Part shown: positions 16,399 through 36,827 of the stretch, one piece after another
Layout: every line of letters begins with the position of its first letter
Position numbering within the stretch: position 1 is the first letter of the stretch
IMG/VR virus record: IMGVR_UViG_3300042402_003740
Span: 1-64,000 of that record
Source: a virus
Reading direction: 5' to 3' (one strand)
Length of the DNA: 64,000 nt
Made by a program: the position numbers and the translations under genes
Notes under the pieces: model-generated
What the model saw: only the letters and a program-made list of their open reading frames with translations
Databases searched by the model: none
What the model was told of the DNA's origin: nothing

Positions 16399-17067
16399 AT
16401 GAATAAGTGCTTAATGTCGGGAATTGTAGCAGCCGTGTCGTGTGGCTCAGTAGCAAATGCAGAGTTCATAGTAGTCAACAATCCAGTTGTTGACACGGTT
16501 GGCTTCTACTCTGATGCATATAAGTCAAGTGGCTCATACACTTATGCACAAAGTGGAGCGCAAGGTTTTGATCTTGAGGATTCATACACAACTTCTTCAT
16601 TGAAGTGGTGGGGTTCATCCAACGGATTCAATGGTCAAGGTATTGGAAACATTACTGGATTCCAAGTTATTGTGTGGAGTTCAGACTTTAGTTCGCCAGT
16701 TAGTTCAACCAATATCAACATCAGCAACATTTCTGTTGTCGATACAGGCGAATTCAACTTCTTTGGTGAACCAGTTTATGAATTTTATGTACCATTTGTG
16801 ACTCAACTCGCCGCTGGTTCATATTACATGAATATTGGTGCTTACCTCAATGACTCTGCTGGCGATCAATTTGTTTGGTCACAAGGTCAGAATGTTCAAG
16901 ACTTCTGGTATACTGATGATAATGGACAGTATAATTGGGGAGATTGGCGACAACTTCCTACATTCATTGGCAACACAGCGGGTGGAGCATTTGTTCTCTC
17001 TGCTCCTACTCCTGGAGCAATTGCTCTTCTTGGTATGGCGGGTCTGATGAGTCGCCGCCGTCGTTAA
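16399..17067 (+). CDS. Secreted PEP-CTERM-type sorted protein
   Basis: A 222-residue exported protein: N-terminal signal peptide (MNKCLMSGIVAAVSCG, cleavage likely after VANA), a Ser/Gly/Asn/aromatic-rich beta-type body with no catalytic motif I recognise, and a C-terminal tripartite sorting signal PTPGAIALLGMAGLMSRRRR (Pro-rich motif, short hydrophobic helix, Arg cluster). Such tails are processed by exosortase-type enzymes and anchor or export surface and matrix proteins; this Pro-x-Pro-Gly...Arg4 style is one I associate with Planctomycetota. A phage carrying it implies use of the host sorting machinery. It has its own promoter and a strong terminator, so it is a separate unit and may be host-derived. 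Start ATG 16399 follows AAAGGAGA; a TTG at 16396 is adjacent but weaker. Confidence 0.75.
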   Translation: MNKCLMSGIVAAVSCGSVANAEFIVVNNPVVDTVGFYSDAYKSSGSYTYAQSGAQGFDLEDSYTTSSLKWWGSSNGFNGQGIGNITGFQVIVWSSDFSSPVSSTNINISNISVVDTGEFNFFGEPVYEFYVPFVTQLAAGSYYMNIGAYLNDSAGDQFVWSQGQNVQDFWYTDDNGQYNWGDWRQLPTFIGNTAGGAFVLSAPTPGAIALLGMAGLMSRRRR

Positions 17068-17343: not shown

Positions 17344-17913
17344 ATGAGAGTAGTTGGTATTGATTACAGTATCCGATGTCCTGCTGTGTGCATCTTTGAG
17401 ACAAATGAAGCACAGCCTGTCTGGTATCACGAAAATTGCCAGATACACTTTCTCACCGAGAAGAAAAAGCACTGCTACCGGATCACTCCAAATGTGACAG
17501 GACACTATATGCCCCTGTATCGTGAACAGGATGATATAGACCGATTCAACAAGATATCTGATTGGGCATTAGGTTTGCTCAAAGAGGGAGATACCATAGG
17601 GATAGAAGACTATGCATTTTCTGCACAAGGAATGGTATATAAGATCGGTGAGAATACTGGTTTGCTCAAATATAAGATGTGGAATTATGGTTATAATTTT
17701 GAACTCGTATCCAACAGTAAGCCAAAGAAACTAGCCACAGGAAAGGGCAATGCAGACAAGCAGGGAGTCTGGGAGGCGTTTGTAGCCGAGACAGGGTGGA
17801 ATATTGACCACCATATCAAACAACGCTCACGAAAAATAACAAGTCCGCTATCGGATATAGCGGACTCGTATTGGATTTGCAAATGGCTATTTGAGAAGAA
17901 ATCTATTTCTTAG
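17344..17913 (+). CDS. RuvC-like Holliday-junction/RNase H-fold nuclease
   Basis: A 189-residue protein with the RuvC-type arrangement of acidic residues: GIDYSIRCPAV (first Asp, ~5), TIGIEDYAFSAQG (Glu, ~87) and SPLSDIADSYWICKW (last Asp pair, ~170-180), with a TGKGNADKQG loop between them. Such proteins resolve recombination intermediates before packaging; T4 uses the unrelated endonuclease VII. The motif CATAAATA (17331-17338), resembling a T4-like late promoter, is directly upstream, with AAAGG. Its 3' end overlaps the convergent lipoprotein gene by 11 bases. Confidence 0.75.
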   Translation: MRVVGIDYSIRCPAVCIFETNEAQPVWYHENCQIHFLTEKKKHCYRITPNVTGHYMPLYREQDDIDRFNKISDWALGLLKEGDTIGIEDYAFSAQGMVYKIGENTGLLKYKMWNYGYNFELVSNSKPKKLATGKGNADKQGVWEAFVAETGWNIDHHIKQRSRKITSPLSDIADSYWICKWLFEKKSIS

Positions 17914-18514
17914 TCTTTTGTTTCTCCGAAAATTTCTTCTTTGCCACTACTTTGTCATCATCAACAAATCCATCACCATTCTGGTCTTCAGGTTGCTTCC
18001 GACCTTGAAGGTAGTACCAGGCAAGCCCTACAACAACTAGTGAATAGAATAGCACAGCATACCAATTAATTTTGGTAATAGAAATCTCCGTGCCTATTGG
18101 TAGAGTGACTTCAGAACCAGCCTCTAGAACAACAGCAACAGAATCCGAAGTCTGCAAATAAGTATTTCCTGGTAGTATGACCTCTGTGCTCTTTGGTAGG
18201 ATAATCTCTTGTGGTTTGACTGTATCCAATTGCTTTGGTGAAAGATCAGCCACTTCAGAATTTGCTGGTTGTGGTTTGATAAAAGCAACTGTATCTTCTT
18301 CAAGAAGAACAGTTGTCTTTTCATCTGGATCAGTCTTTACCCAAGATCCCTTTGCAATTTCGGACTTTGTATCTTTAGGTACAACCGTAACTGTGGGTTT
18401 GTTTAGGGTATCTGGACTCTTTTCCATTGTTGGAACACTTTGAAAAAGAGAAGCCTTGCACGAAGCAAGAAAAAACAAGAGAGAAACACCTAATACTATA
18501 GCAAATGATTTCAT
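17903..18514 (-). CDS. Candidate unimolecular spanin (lipoprotein with C-terminal TM)
   Basis: A 203-residue protein starting at ATG 18514, six bases after AAGGAG. It has a lipoprotein signal with lipobox L-A-S-C (Cys19), a ~130-residue Pro/Thr/Val-rich extended region, a membrane helix at ~151-169 (WYAVLFYSLVVVGLAWYYL) and a basic C-terminal tail. A lipid anchor for the outer membrane plus an inner-membrane helix is the architecture of u-spanins (such as phage T1 gp11), which fuse the two membranes in the last step of lysis. The neighbouring gene looks like a holin, which supports this. Unusual are the long cytoplasmic tail and an EF-hand-like loop DQNGDGFVDD (~177-186) that could bind calcium. 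It could also be an unrelated envelope lipoprotein. Confidence 0.6.
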   Translation of the reverse strand: MKSFAIVLGVSLLFFLASCKASLFQSVPTMEKSPDTLNKPTVTVVPKDTKSEIAKGSWVKTDPDEKTTVLLEEDTVAFIKPQPANSEVADLSPKQLDTVKPQEIILPKSTEVILPGNTYLQTSDSVAVVLEAGSEVTLPIGTEISITKINWYAVLFYSLVVVGLAWYYLQGRKQPEDQNGDGFVDDDKVVAKKKFSEKQKTKK

Positions 18515-18524
18515 ATAGAACTCC

Positions 18525-18962
18525 TTATGATTTATTTCCTGCGGCGGCTGAACCAAAGTAGAAACCGATAATACTCAATAGAATTTGTCTGTTTTCTTGT
18601 GTGAACAGGTATCCATTAACTGTTTGGAATGCCACCTCTGTTGATTCTGGAATCAGACCAAACACCCATTCGGGATTTGTCTTTTCTACTTCTACAACCG
18701 TTGGTATGCCAAAGAATGGCAAGACAAAAGGTGCTGCAATAGTCCCAAACAGAACCATCAGCACTATGAGTTGTCTGACAGTTTTTCCTGCATCAACAGG
18801 TACTCGCTTTACGGCAGCATTTTGATTGTCATTTGTTCGCTTATTAGCAGTCAACAGACGATCAAACGCTTCTTTTTCGGCCTGACGCTTCTCAGCCATG
18901 TGACGGAAGATAAATCCCGTCGCACTTCCACCAATGAGTGTTATCAGTTCGGTTGGTATCAT
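18525..18962 (-). CDS. Putative holin (3-TM, GTA-holin-like)
   Basis: A 145-residue protein with a hydrophobic N-terminus (ELITLIGGSATGFIF), a charged amphipathic region (MAEKRQAEKEAFDRLL), a long membrane segment (QLIVLMVLFGTIAAPFVLPF) and a C-terminal one ending FYFGSAAAGN. This order and the F-x-F-G-S ending resemble the 3-TM holin family of gene-transfer agents and marine phages. It starts on the last base of the FtsZ-like gene stop (TAATG) and is followed by the candidate spanin, forming a lysis pair. The endolysin is not adjacent; a lysozyme-like gene lies at 62.4 kb. Confidence 0.6.
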   Translation of the reverse strand: MIPTELITLIGGSATGFIFRHMAEKRQAEKEAFDRLLTANKRTNDNQNAAVKRVPVDAGKTVRQLIVLMVLFGTIAAPFVLPFFGIPTVVEVEKTNPEWVFGLIPESTEVAFQTVNGYLFTQENRQILLSIIGFYFGSAAAGNKS

Positions 18963-20185
18963 TAGTTTGCCTCCTTGAATGGGTCTTTTGCGTTGAACCC
19001 ATCAAGTTCTTCCTTACGAATATTTGCTGCAAACTGTTCTAGACGATTCTTTGGAATCTTCAGACCGGAGATAAGCGTGTAAAGACGAAGTGTGGGCTTT
19101 TCGTCTTCGTAGATGCCACGGTGCAGAGTTGCACTCGGACATAGTGAAGACAGTGTATCGAATCCATAGGAAAGACTGTCCATCAATCCTGGTGTATTCT
19201 CCATTATTTCCTTGCCACCAACGGCGCAACAAGCAGCATAGGTTGCTTCTGAAATATCTAATTCTGCAAGCAAGGTCTTGTCTACATTAGACTTGATTGC
19301 TCCAGAAATCTTTGTTTCGTGTGCTGGTTCTTTTTTGTCACCATCACTTTTAACAGGATCGAGTTTAGAAACACCCATGACCATTGTTCCACCACAGCGA
19401 AGCACGGTTGCATAGTCTGTTGGGTCGAAAGAGGTATATGGGGAAGCGTGTTTAGAAAGCACATTGAAGATATGGAATAGTCCTGATACAGTATTGTTTA
19501 TAGTTGACCAGAACTCTTTGACTGTAAGATTCTTGTACATCTTTTCAATCTTTGAGTTATCAAGAATGATAAGAGGAGAGATCTCTTTCCGTTCTGCTTG
19601 TCCACCGACTTGCTTCAACACACGATATGCATTGAAGGAAACCTTTGGAGAGGCTGCTTCACCACGGGTGGGAAGAGACATCACAACACCTACACGCTCT
19701 TCTGGTTTGTCATGTCCGATGAACTTCATGTACTTCTTTGCAATGTCGATAAGCACAAGTGAAGATCCGCTACCGCTACCGCCTCCTGCACCAATGCAAA
19801 CCATAATGTGGTCAACTTTTGTTCCATATGTTTTACGCATAAGATCAAAAATCTGCTGCTTGTATTTCATAGCAGCAGATGCACCACGCTCCATGTCTTT
19901 TCCTGCTCCCTCTTCACCGATATCCAAGAGCATTTTCTGTGCAGCAGGAATGTCCAAGCGGTCTAGATCTTGTCTTGAAGTATTTACGGCAATGCACTTC
20001 TTGTAGCCACGGTCATAGAAAGCCTTTGCAAGACGACCTCCACCTTGACCTGAACCAATCCATGCAAACACATGGGAACCACCGCTTTGGTCTTCAACGC
20101 ATTGTTCCGTTGAATCTGGTTCCTTGTAGTCTTCTAACTCAAGATCGGGTATCTCTAGATCTGGTACATCTGGTAACTCATCCAT
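18962..20185 (-). CDS. FtsZ/tubulin-like GTPase
   Basis: A 407-residue protein of the tubulin/FtsZ superfamily. After a very acidic ~35-residue N-terminal tail come the phosphate loop WIGSGQGGGRLAK (~42-54), the ribose/sugar-contact strand CIAVNTSRQDLDRL (~64-77), GEEGAGKDMERG (~90-101), the tubulin signature GAGGGSGSG (~132-140), a guanine-contact segment PLIILDNSKIE (~204-214; compare FtsZ IPNDRLL) and a T7-loop candidate FDPTDYATVLRCGG (~253-266) that keeps the D-x-x-D pair for GTP hydrolysis. Overall it is closer to FtsZ than to the tubulin-like PhuZ of jumbo phages, as far as can be judged by eye. It is coupled to the holin gene downstream. Possible roles are a phage spindle or DNA-positioning filament, or interference with host division. 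Confidence 0.8.
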   Translation of the reverse strand: MDELPDVPDLEIPDLELEDYKEPDSTEQCVEDQSGGSHVFAWIGSGQGGGRLAKAFYDRGYKKCIAVNTSRQDLDRLDIPAAQKMLLDIGEEGAGKDMERGASAAMKYKQQIFDLMRKTYGTKVDHIMVCIGAGGGSGSGSSLVLIDIAKKYMKFIGHDKPEERVGVVMSLPTRGEAASPKVSFNAYRVLKQVGGQAERKEISPLIILDNSKIEKMYKNLTVKEFWSTINNTVSGLFHIFNVLSKHASPYTSFDPTDYATVLRCGGTMVMGVSKLDPVKSDGDKKEPAHETKISGAIKSNVDKTLLAELDISEATYAACCAVGGKEIMENTPGLMDSLSYGFDTLSSLCPSATLHRGIYEDEKPTLRLYTLISGLKIPKNRLEQFAANIRKEELDGFNAKDPFKEAN

Positions 20186-20197
20186 TTTTATCTCCTT

Positions 20198-21454
20198 TTA
20201 CCATGAATATGATATTTCTGTAGTTTCTAATCCGAAAAATTCAAGCACGGCTGCGATACCTTTTGCAAACAGGCGAGCAATCATACTTAAAACTGCCTTT
20301 ACGACACTTATGAACTGTTTGTATGCATTAGCAACAGCACTTCCTGCCGATTTGATAAGACTTACGGTTGTATCCAAAACACCTTCTGTAAGGCAAGCAT
20401 ACTCAAAATCTTGGTGCAAAGCCTTCTCAATAATCATAAAAGCCGAGTATTGCTGTGGAGAGAGTTCCCATGTTTCTCTTATGTCCACACGGAGCGATCC
20501 ACCGCCTTCTTCTCCACGATCACGGATGTTCATACGAAATGCACTAAAATGCGAGTCAATGAATTCATCAATGTCCAATATGCGAAGGTTGCCCTTTTCA
20601 TTCCATATCATAAACCAGTCAGCACTTCTATCTTTTTCTGATGGGATGTACCGTTTTTCTCCTGAAGCAAACTCTTTGAAGATTTTCTTCCTGATAGGGG
20701 ATGATGCCATGAAGTTTGTGATATTTTGAGTTATTGCTGGTCTTATACCAGACATCTGTAGGAATTTCTGAACAGCCCTCATTTGAGCAACAGAAGGAAT
20801 ACCCGATCCTGCTTTCAGTCCTAGTAGAGCAGAAAGAGAGGAGTCGAAGTCCTTTTGTCCGTATTTACTACGAAGGGTGTAATAGTTTTCTTTTGATAAT
20901 ACAGAAGATATGACCTTACGAACGGCTTTGACCGCTTCATTGTTTTGACCGAGGGCAGCAGAGATAACAGCATTGGCTTCTCCTGCTTTTGCCGATGCAA
21001 CCTGTGCATCTCCCTCTTTTTTCATGCTTACACGCATTTTTCCATTTAGTTGGGAAGAAATCACAATATCTGATTTAGGATCTCCATTGCACTTTCCATC
21101 ATCACACATATAGGTCTTGTATATGGGAGAGAGTACACTTGCCCCATCACTAGTTTTTTTGTTTTGGTGTACTTTTGCTCCCTTGACTGCGCCAGATACT
21201 AGTTCAATATTCTCTGCACACTTCTGTGCAACCGCCATTGCAGCGGATGATTGATAACTGGATATGTCTGTCTTTTTTAGAAGAGCAGCAACCAAATCAG
21301 ATTCAAATCTGGTTGGATTAATAACAGAACTGCTCTGCTTTGCAGAGTCAGATTGTGCTTTTAGTCTTGACGCTATGTCGGATATTCTGCTCAATCGTTC
21401 TTGCTCCGAGGCTTGAAGTACACCATTTCTTGAGACATGGTGTTTCTTAAGCAT
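20198..21454 (-). CDS. Virion-type protein with degenerate nuclease-like core
   Basis: A 418-residue protein of unknown function. The segment SDIVISSQLNGKMRVSMKKE (~128-147), followed by GDAQVASAKAGEA, aligns by eye with the D...E-x-K core of the two nuclease-like proteins at 49.2-51.2 kb (INGQ...MEIKM..NAQMGG), but with Ser in place of Glu. Near the C-terminus is CLTEGVL (~350), a possible prohead-protease site, followed by a hydrophobic/amphipathic tail. I infer a structural or internal head protein. It overlaps the next upstream gene by 64 bases and precedes the FtsZ-like gene by 12. Confidence 0.5.
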   Translation of the reverse strand: MLKKHHVSRNGVLQASEQERLSRISDIASRLKAQSDSAKQSSSVINPTRFESDLVAALLKKTDISSYQSSAAMAVAQKCAENIELVSGAVKGAKVHQNKKTSDGASVLSPIYKTYMCDDGKCNGDPKSDIVISSQLNGKMRVSMKKEGDAQVASAKAGEANAVISAALGQNNEAVKAVRKVISSVLSKENYYTLRSKYGQKDFDSSLSALLGLKAGSGIPSVAQMRAVQKFLQMSGIRPAITQNITNFMASSPIRKKIFKEFASGEKRYIPSEKDRSADWFMIWNEKGNLRILDIDEFIDSHFSAFRMNIRDRGEEGGGSLRVDIRETWELSPQQYSAFMIIEKALHQDFEYACLTEGVLDTTVSLIKSAGSAVANAYKQFISVVKAVLSMIARLFAKGIAAVLEFFGLETTEISYSW

Positions 21455-26776: not shown

Positions 26777-26849
26777 TGCACTTGATAGGACTCGAACCTA
26801 CACTAAGTAGAACCTAAATCTACCGCCTCTGCCATTGGGCTACAAGTGC
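26777..26849 (-). tRNA. tRNA with anticodon UAG (Leu CUA), short variable loop
   Basis: A cloverleaf can be drawn: acceptor GCACTTG/CAAGTGC, D arm GCC/GGC, anticodon stem GTAGA/TCTAC with loop TTTAGGT (anticodon TAG), five-base variable loop, T arm with loop TTCGAGT, discriminator A, no encoded CCA. UAG reads leucine CUA, yet leucine tRNAs normally have a long variable arm; this one is class I. The loop differs by one base from a typical proline loop (TTTGGGT), so the true amino acid is uncertain. Confidence 0.8.
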
Positions 26850-26854
26850 TCAAG

Positions 26855-26928
26855 CGTCCCCGAGTGGATTCGAACCACTAACCTACGACTTAGAAGGTCG
26901 TTGCAATATCCTATTATGCTACGAGGAC
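26855..26928 (-). tRNA. tRNA-Arg (UCU)
   Basis: Acceptor GTCCTCG/CGGGGAC, D arm GCA/TGC, anticodon stem ACGAC/GTCGT with loop CTTCTAA (anticodon TCT), T loop TTCGAAT, discriminator G, no encoded CCA. It reads AGA, a codon frequent in the AT-rich fibre genes. Confidence 0.93.
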
Positions 26929-36169: not shown

Positions 36170-36170
36170 A

Positions 36171-36241
36171 TTCCCTTGCTTGGATTCGAACCAAGAAAAA
36201 GAGATCCAAAGTCTCTCGTGTTACCGTTACACTACAAGGGA
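36171..36241 (-). tRNA. tRNA-Gln (UUG)
   Basis: Acceptor TCCCTTG/CAAGGGA, D arm GTG/CAC, anticodon stem AGAGA/TCTCT with loop CTTTGGA (anticodon TTG), T loop TTCGAAT, discriminator A, no encoded CCA. One base separates it from tRNA-Ser. Confidence 0.93.
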
Positions 36242-36242
36242 A

Positions 36243-36332
36243 AGGAAGAAGTGGGATTCGAACCCACGGTAGACATCGAATGCCTACGCCGGTTTTCAAG
36301 ACCAGTGCCTTTAACCACTCAGCCATTCTTCC
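36243..36332 (-). tRNA. tRNA-Ser (UGA)
   Basis: Acceptor GGAAGAA/TTCTTCC, anticodon stem CTGGT/ACCGG with loop CTTGAAA (anticodon TGA), long variable arm (GTAGGCATTCGATGTCTAC), T loop TTCGAAT. The base after the acceptor is T, whereas serine tRNAs normally have G. Confidence 0.93.
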
Positions 36333-36337
36333 ATCAG

Positions 36338-36410
36338 TGGACTGAGGGGGACTTGAACCCCCAACCTCTGCCTTGCAAAGGCAGCGTTCCCCCAGTTGAA
36401 CTATCAGCCC
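36338..36410 (-). tRNA. tRNA-Ala (UGC)
   Basis: Acceptor GGGCTGA/TCAGTCC with one G-U pair, anticodon stem CTGCC/GGCAG with loop TTTGCAA (anticodon TGC), T loop TTCAAGT, discriminator A. Alanyl-tRNA is also what charges tmRNA, but this is an ordinary elongator. Confidence 0.93.
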
Positions 36411-36414
36411 AGAA

Positions 36415-36496
36415 TCCGAGAGGCGGGACTCGAACCCGCAAGCCGAAAGGCAGCAGATTTTAAGTCTGCCGTGTATGCCAATTCCACCACTCTCAG
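36415..36496 (-). tRNA. tRNA-Leu (UAA)
   Basis: Acceptor CTGAGAG/CTCTCGG, anticodon stem GCAGA/TCTGC with loop CTTAAAA (anticodon TAA), long variable arm (TGCCTTTCGGCTT), T loop TTCGAGT, discriminator A. This is a normal class II leucine tRNA, unlike the one at 26.8 kb. Three bases separate it from the tmRNA. Confidence 0.93.
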
Positions 36497-36499
36497 TCA

Positions 36500-36827
36500 T
36501 GGAGTCGGGGGGATTTGCACCCCCGTCCAGAACCACATCAAAGACAAACTTCTACGGAACCTAGTCCGTGTTCTGTACAGCATCGGGACACGGACATCCC
36601 TTTGCAGTTTGCGAATCGTTTAGTTCAACAGCCTTACGATTCCTATGGCAGTCTATCCGATGGTTTGGGAGGGGTAGATATCGGAGTCTCTACCCCTCCC
36701 TTGCCGCTTCAAGCAGCGAGACGAACTGTGTTAGCAGTTATTGTGTGGTCGATTTTATACAGAGCCGTTCGACCAACTCTGGTGCGCCGTTTGTCTCCTA
36801 CTTAGCCTGTCGAATCTACTCGACCCC
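36500..36827 (-). ncRNA. ssrA: tmRNA (ssrA) with tag ANTVRLAA
   Basis: A 328-base transfer-messenger RNA that would free stalled ribosomes and tag their products. The 5' end GGGGTCG pairs with CGACTCC at the 3' end (one G-U), followed by discriminator A; the 5' part contains the conserved GATTCGACAGGC. Pseudoknot 1 is visible: CAGAG/CTCTG interleaved with TGGTCG/CGACCA. The tag frame at 36735-36709 follows AATAACT and reads GCT AAC ACA GTT CGT CTC GCT GCT TGA, giving ANTVRLAA, which ends in the usual LAA degron. A GC-rich hairpin with arms GGGAGGGGTAGA and TCTACCCCTCCC forms part of the later pseudoknot region. The T loop is TGCAAAT, not the usual TTC type. The 5' end is the base directly after the gp32 stop codon, so maturation must depend on cleavage of a shared transcript. 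Confidence 0.92.

Follow-up and report, generated by a model that had tools for sequence, protein, structure and literature searches.

To our knowledge, roles have so far been assigned to two kinds of phage tubulin: PhuZ, from jumbo phages that form a nucleus, and TubZ, from partition systems. A prophage partition system with TubZ and the PhuZ of jumbo phages are cited in PMC8597652, PMC5322520 and PMC8314001, and tubulin/FtsZ protein clusters are mentioned for mitomycin-induced hot-spring viromes (PMC8597652). It has also been shown that the C-terminal tail of TubZ is the site bound by TubR and TubY (PMC5322520), and that another superfamily member, FtsZl-1, occurs in planctomycetes (PMC2875224). 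In the open-access literature, we found no description of the present tubulin clade in T4-like phages or planctomycetes. Here, we describe a third, abundant phage tubulin group, encoded by T4-like marine viruses. These tubulins are better conserved than the packaging motor and are thus probably important for infection.

A TubZ-proximal tubulin clade in T4-like viruses

The stretch of DNA analysed (the window) comprises 64 kb out of a 92,327-bp IMG/VR virus record. The genes it carries are those of a T4-like myovirus, with a gp43-type polymerase, UvsX, a gp41-type helicase, a primase, a gp32-type SSB, a helicase loader, a baseplate hub, RNR, a ThyX-type thymidylate synthase and GroES. The window also carries a phage-encoded tmRNA (tag ANTVRLAA) together with a cluster of four tRNA genes (36170-36827) and two more tRNAs (26777-26928). 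At record positions 64001-80000, coding appears to be broken up into short ORFs on both strands, unlike in the remaining record, and frameshifts or assembly trouble are possible there.

The tubulin gene lies on the minus strand at 18962-20185, with its ATG at 20185 and the stop codon ending at 18962, and encodes 407 aa behind a strong ribosome-binding site (SD AAAGGAGA). The protein scored 44.5 bits against Pfam Tubulin PF00091 (cut-off 33), which excludes chance as an explanation of the ORF; together with the T4 signature GGGxGxG and the acidic T7 residues, this score places it in the tubulin/FtsZ superfamily. All loops could be located on the minus strand: the T1 nucleotide-binding loop GSGQGGGR (residues 44-51; 20033-20056), the T3 loop GEEGAGKD (residues 90-97; 19895-19918), the T4 signature GAGGGSGSG (residues 132-140; 19766-19792) and the T7 loop SFDPTDY (residues 252-258; 19412-19432) with the catalytic-type D254 and D257. 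They are preceded by an acidic N-terminal tail (residues 1-38; 20072-20185, minus strand), which includes the conserved motif PDLEIPDLELEDY and is predicted to be disordered over residues 1-26 (AlphaFold2 pLDDT <50).

Relatives were collected in three steps, a single sequence retrieving 18 close viral loci, their alignment 91, and a deeper alignment 169. At least 169 viral contigs encode relatives (80 of the 169 are listed), with identities from 49 to 100%. Three contigs of 172-191 kb from one large clade (clade B, about 50% identical to the window protein) are near full T4-like size (L034, L060, L073). Motif counts, tail lengths and charges were taken from 85 unique full-length viral proteins. 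The T7 pattern was found in all 85, T1 in 84 and T4 in 82; D254, D257 and the GQGGGR of T1 are invariant, GAGGGSGSG is invariant within the close group, and the PLIILDNSKIE region (residues 204-214) is mostly invariant, its remaining variation being conservative. The N-terminal tails measure 31-78 residues with net charges of -3 to -22, and 84 of the 85 contain the pattern [IL]Px[IL]x[IL]E[DA][YFE]. As judged from sequence, a conserved motif inside a disordered tail suggests a putative binding site. The initial annotation had reported exactly this ORF position, GTPase motifs from the nucleotide loop to T7 including D254/D257, and an acidic N-terminal tail; each holds, the motifs and the acidity across the family. 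In comparisons with 93-97% identical relatives, dN/dS was about 0.01-0.03 with dS near saturation, and dN was 0.02-0.06 while dS had already reached about 2, which points to strong purifying selection on the gene.

By its sequence, profile matches, fold and phylogeny, the protein goes with TubZ. In a phmmer search against the PDB, TubZ/RepX 4ei7 came first (2e-17, residues 30-380), followed by CetZ and FtsZ, and a profile search again returned 4ei7 (E=5e-22). The viral profile scored plasmid TubZ with 112-76 bits and phage G gp138 with 87, as against at most 62 for archaeal FtsZ, at most 52 for CetZ, 22 for E. coli FtsZ and at most 13 for PhuZ. The AlphaFold2 model (pLDDT 84, pTM 0.85) predicts a complete two-domain tubulin/FtsZ fold with a long H7 helix (222-243) and a C-terminal sheet. 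With this model, Foldseek ranked TubZ structures 1-8 (best 4ei7, E 6e-22, TM 0.70/0.74), then CetZ, then FtsZ; in the viral library, the closest entries were one protein of an uncultured phage with the machine-made label FtsZ and another labelled 'cell division protein', with PhuZ-like proteins next and distant. In the IQ-TREE phylogeny, the viral clade (100/99) joined TubZ and phage G with 99/97 support as the sister of TubZ, not nested among its members, and FtsZ (99/97), CetZ (100/100) and PhuZ (100/100) formed separate groups. The protein is thus a TubZ-class member of the tubulin/FtsZ superfamily belonging to a distinct, TubZ-proximal viral clade, neither FtsZ nor PhuZ.

Three other assignments were rejected. 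For FtsZ, the NCBIfam model TIGR00065 gave 48.9 bits against a cut-off of 295.2; for PhuZ, phrog_4733 gave 14.8 bits (E 0.02) and tblastn between the viral tubulin group and PhuZ yielded no mutual matches; for FtsZl-1/Tubulin_2, PF13809 gave 19 bits against a cut-off of 27. Of the label 'FtsZ-like GTPase' originally given to the protein, the superfamily GTPase part stands and the FtsZ part does not. Its distinction from PhuZ was borne out by the phylogeny that had been proposed as a check, in which the protein did not nest within PhuZ.

Chromosomal relatives in planctomycetes

How division and chromosome organisation are achieved in planctomycetes lacking FtsZ is an open question. PF00091 proteins were present in three of 294 Planctomycetota genomes, and all three belong to the present family (527-530 bits with the viral profile). 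In the order to which these three belong, 28 of 161 genomes carry a member (up to 557 bits), and a sample of 397 genomes of the class revealed no further order with one, every match being already in the known set. A control with 399 genomes from the phylum of a SAR92 genome reached at most 42 bits, which corresponds to ordinary FtsZ. Canonical FtsZ was above cut-off in 0 of 159 genomes of the order, in agreement with the lack of FtsZ reported for planctomycetes (PMC5147048); with a GC content of 45-54%, our guess is that the order would fit Sedimentisphaerales as in PMC11266412. The initial annotation had envisaged an imported FtsZ-like filament in such a host, a view that does not survive, the order without canonical FtsZ having its own chromosomal members of this tubulin family.

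These proteins are the closest cellular relatives, about 53% identical to the viral protein over 365 residues. Their genes belong to chromosomes: one is found on a contig of 2.96 Mb, and others adjoin apparent ilvC, lepB, pst, pheT, cysS, his and ruvC genes, as judged by translation. Many copies start with an H1-like tail that is rich in Lys/Arg, about 65-180 residues long and of net charge +21 to +65, and others have short, mildly acidic tails. The motif [IL]Px[IL]x[IL]E..Y is common to viral and planctomycete proteins, following the basic tails in the latter. In several genomes the gene is paired in tandem with a second copy whose nucleotide pocket is degraded (pairs L280/L301, L283 and L285/L303; for example T3 GEDGNDS and T4 GAGGAAGSG), reminiscent, by its sequence, of a regulatory or heterodimer partner. 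Separately, a 211-219 aa protein is encoded directly upstream of the tubulin in two genomes (L301:9870-10505, L302:8563-9222) and is a possible partner. In the tree, the planctomycete proteins form a clade (100/100) that branches within or next to the viral ones; since the AU test did not reject viral monophyly (p 0.20), transfer may have gone in either direction. No mention of a chromosomal planctomycete tubulin with histone-like tails was found in the open-access literature searched; with such a protein in an order lacking FtsZ, part of the organisation question becomes directly testable.

A planctomycete had been considered as a possible host in the initial annotation, and for the window lineage this is plausible. 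A window protein (16399-17067) ends in APTPGAIALLGMAGLMSRRRR, a PEP-CTERM-type sorting tail, and close relatives of the window virus encode dockerin-type secreted proteins instead of or besides it; the PEP-CTERM protein matched weakly in 6 of 294 planctomycete genomes, and three others gave no match. Two further markers were discarded. RNR, tried as a host marker, gave 32 matches in MAGs from a wide range of phyla, a Phycisphaerales and a Blastopirellula genome among them, but most of these are probably viral contigs that ended up in bins. The hydrazine-synthase domain, tried as an anammox test, is shared by numerous paralogues and so does not single out Brocadiales. The RNRs of two planctomycete-MAG contigs (L258:1983-4652, L262:1977-4829) have 889-950 aa, about 210-270 aa more than the phage RNR; the extra length is possibly an intein, and those contigs look viral.

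The cellular homologues allow two related proposals on what the phage protein does. The broader one, which we hold tentatively and regard as unlikely, is that this undescribed family forms a chromosomal, DNA-binding (histone-H1-tailed) cytoskeleton in FtsZ-less planctomycetes, and that the tail-stripped phage versions co-assemble or compete with the host filament; if true, the family would replace part of the FtsZ/Par machinery and be common to the host order and its viruses. The narrower one, somewhat less probable still, is that the phage protein would co-polymerise with or poison a related host tubulin, its acidic tail taking the place of the DNA-binding-like basic one and so freeing or redirecting the host chromosome machinery. 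The shared motif, the 53% identity, the opposite charges of the tails and the PEP-CTERM and dockerin-type proteins are consistent with such interference. However, the homologue is confined to 28 of 161 genomes of one order among the Planctomycetota sampled, the hosts of these phages are not known members of that order, clade-B viruses carry no planctomycete signal, and short acidic tails are also found on some cellular copies.

Gene order around the tubulin

In the window, the tubulin gene is followed by a gene for a 145-aa membrane protein of holin-like topology (18525-18962, minus strand), to which it is translationally coupled at TAATG; the GGAGG...TAATG junction is a 1-base overlap, as initially reported. 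The 145-aa protein is conserved in the group of 90-100% identity and matches only PHROGs of unknown function (phrog_38283), and its 'holin' label is a guess from topology. Next comes a 203-aa protein (17903-18514, minus strand) with a lipobox (LASC), a second hydrophobic segment and no Pfam match, a possible lysis or envelope partner. The order tubulin, holin-like gene, lipobox gene is that of the window group. Upstream by 12 nt and co-directional, a 418-aa protein of unknown function (20198-21454, minus strand) is conserved mainly among close relatives.

Clade B shows a different arrangement. There, a gene for a 61-aa TM protein comes first, then one for a 104-aa protein with an N-terminal TM segment, which is separated from the tubulin by 10-13 nt; 1 nt after the tubulin stands the gene for a 126-aa signal-peptide/TM protein, followed by those for a 137-aa Cys-rich protein, a gp16-like protein, the gp17-type terminase and the portal. 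The tubulin is recurrently co-oriented with late genes in this clade, and in about 49 of 54 loci it lies in a fixed operon with gp16, gp17 and portal. Within this operon it is the most conserved protein (92.5%, versus 79.6% for the terminase and 74.4% for the portal), a pattern expected of a polymer-forming protein. As a ranking derived from a tubulin-based search is biased, it was rechecked on loci selected by terminase and held there too, the tubulin being, for example, 93-95% identical at terminase identities of 76-84%. The upstream gaps showed no enrichment of a T4-type late-promoter motif, the forward motif occurring in 2 of 153.

Loci selected by terminase, independently of the tubulin, gave a sharp contrast. 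With terminase identity of at least 70% and enough upstream sequence, the tubulin was at the locus in 15 of 15 viruses, versus 0 of 26 sister viruses with terminase identity of 61-67%. The sisters retain the 61-aa gene, the Cys-rich gene and, at the place of the tubulin insertion, two genes for membrane proteins, in most cases with an 11-nt overlap; by hhalign, the second product is a homologue of the 126-aa protein (P 1e-7), and the first matches in position and topology only. Since these membrane genes are kept without the tubulin, the late cassette existed independently of it, and the tubulin was either inserted there or lost; and since 26 sisters do without it, T4-like packaging as such does not require it. 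The idea that the membrane proteins are dedicated tubulin anchors is correspondingly weakened.

In other relatives, the tubulin adjoins a DUF6267, cytidylyltransferase or RuvC-like gene. The family has at least five genomic contexts, two of them with a lysis-gene link, which is therefore lineage-specific. The initial description of the gene as coupled to lysis genes is right for the holin-like and lipoprotein-like neighbours seen here but does not extend to the family as a whole. We consider it improbable that the neighbouring membrane proteins anchor a tubulin that shapes the envelope or times lysis. The TAATG coupling and the lysis-like cassette of clade B, where the tubulin sits between genes for an N-terminal-TM and a signal-peptide/TM protein, would agree with such a role, but membrane genes that persist in the sisters do not exist for the tubulin, and other tubulin-bearing relatives have no lysis-like neighbour.

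Proposed function and comparison with known systems

The reading we favour, with middling confidence, is that of a late, GTP-driven cytomotive filament of the TubZ type that positions phage DNA or capsids. Monomers would polymerise head to tail, each subunit using its T7 aspartates to trigger GTP hydrolysis in the adjoining one. The filament would treadmill or show dynamic instability, as TubZ and PhuZ do. It would be made late, as gene order suggests: alongside the packaging genes in one clade, and alongside lysis-like genes in two lineages. Cargo or an anchor may be recruited through the conserved N-terminal motif and not through a C-terminal tail, and the filament would then move or position its load, either phage DNA under replication or procapsids, inside the infected cell. 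Since chimallin, PhuZ and the phiKZ RNAP subunit tested were not detected in the stretches examined, which are partial genomes, the PhuZ-spindle model is not simply transferable.

A type III partition system (TubZRC) of a plasmid-like prophage, already disfavoured, is very improbable, even though plasmid and prophage TubZ are the closest characterised relatives. No TubR was found among 1,523 viral ORFs in a search in which the plasmid TubRs of Pontibacillus, Planococcus and Lysinibacillus find each other at about 1e-14 or better, nor were any iterons (tubC) found; moreover, the TubR-binding C-terminal tail (PMC5322520) is absent in several members, and the gene set is that of a T4-like phage. 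Lacking TubR and iterons, the locus is not filed as TubZRC. That the protein is a diverged FtsZ, building or blocking a division ring, hardly comes into question: the 48.9 bits with TIGR00065 and the IPx[L] core of the tail, faintly like the FtsZ C-terminal peptide DIPxFL, are set against a score far under the cut-off, a position outside FtsZ in the tree, 22 bits for E. coli FtsZ versus 75-112 for TubZ with the viral profile, and a tail without the basic end of the FtsZ peptide.

The cytomotive filament proposed here can be compared with several known systems. FtsZl-1/Tubulin_2 (PF13809) shares the superfamily and also occurs in Planctomycetes, but the viral protein has no coiled-coil extension of the kind described for it. 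Bacterial and archaeal FtsZ and archaeal CetZ share superfamily and fold and form separate clades. PhuZ of phiKZ-like jumbo phages is likewise a phage-encoded tubulin of lytic phages; however, it forms its own clade, and the viral loci have no chimallin nearby. Bacillus phage G gp138, annotated as 'putative FtsZ-like cell division protein', was the only match in 50,697 phage records (23% over 87%, 5e-9). Like the viral clade, it groups with TubZ, but it has a very long branch, begins at the GTPase domain without an N-terminal tail, and belongs to another phage type and gene context. The best match by sequence, profile, fold and tree is TubZ/RepX of Bacillaceae plasmids (B. cereus 4EI7; B. thuringiensis 2XKA), which shares the T1-T7 layout and has a GTPase and a C-terminal domain of equal length. 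It differs in being only about 28% identical to the viral protein and in being accompanied by TubR and tubC. In the alignment, many family members end a few residues past the fold, so that the long, flexible C-terminal tail of TubZ is missing and a conserved N-terminal motif stands in its place. Finally, TubZ/RepX resides on plasmids, whereas the present family is found in T4-like phages and on planctomycete chromosomes.
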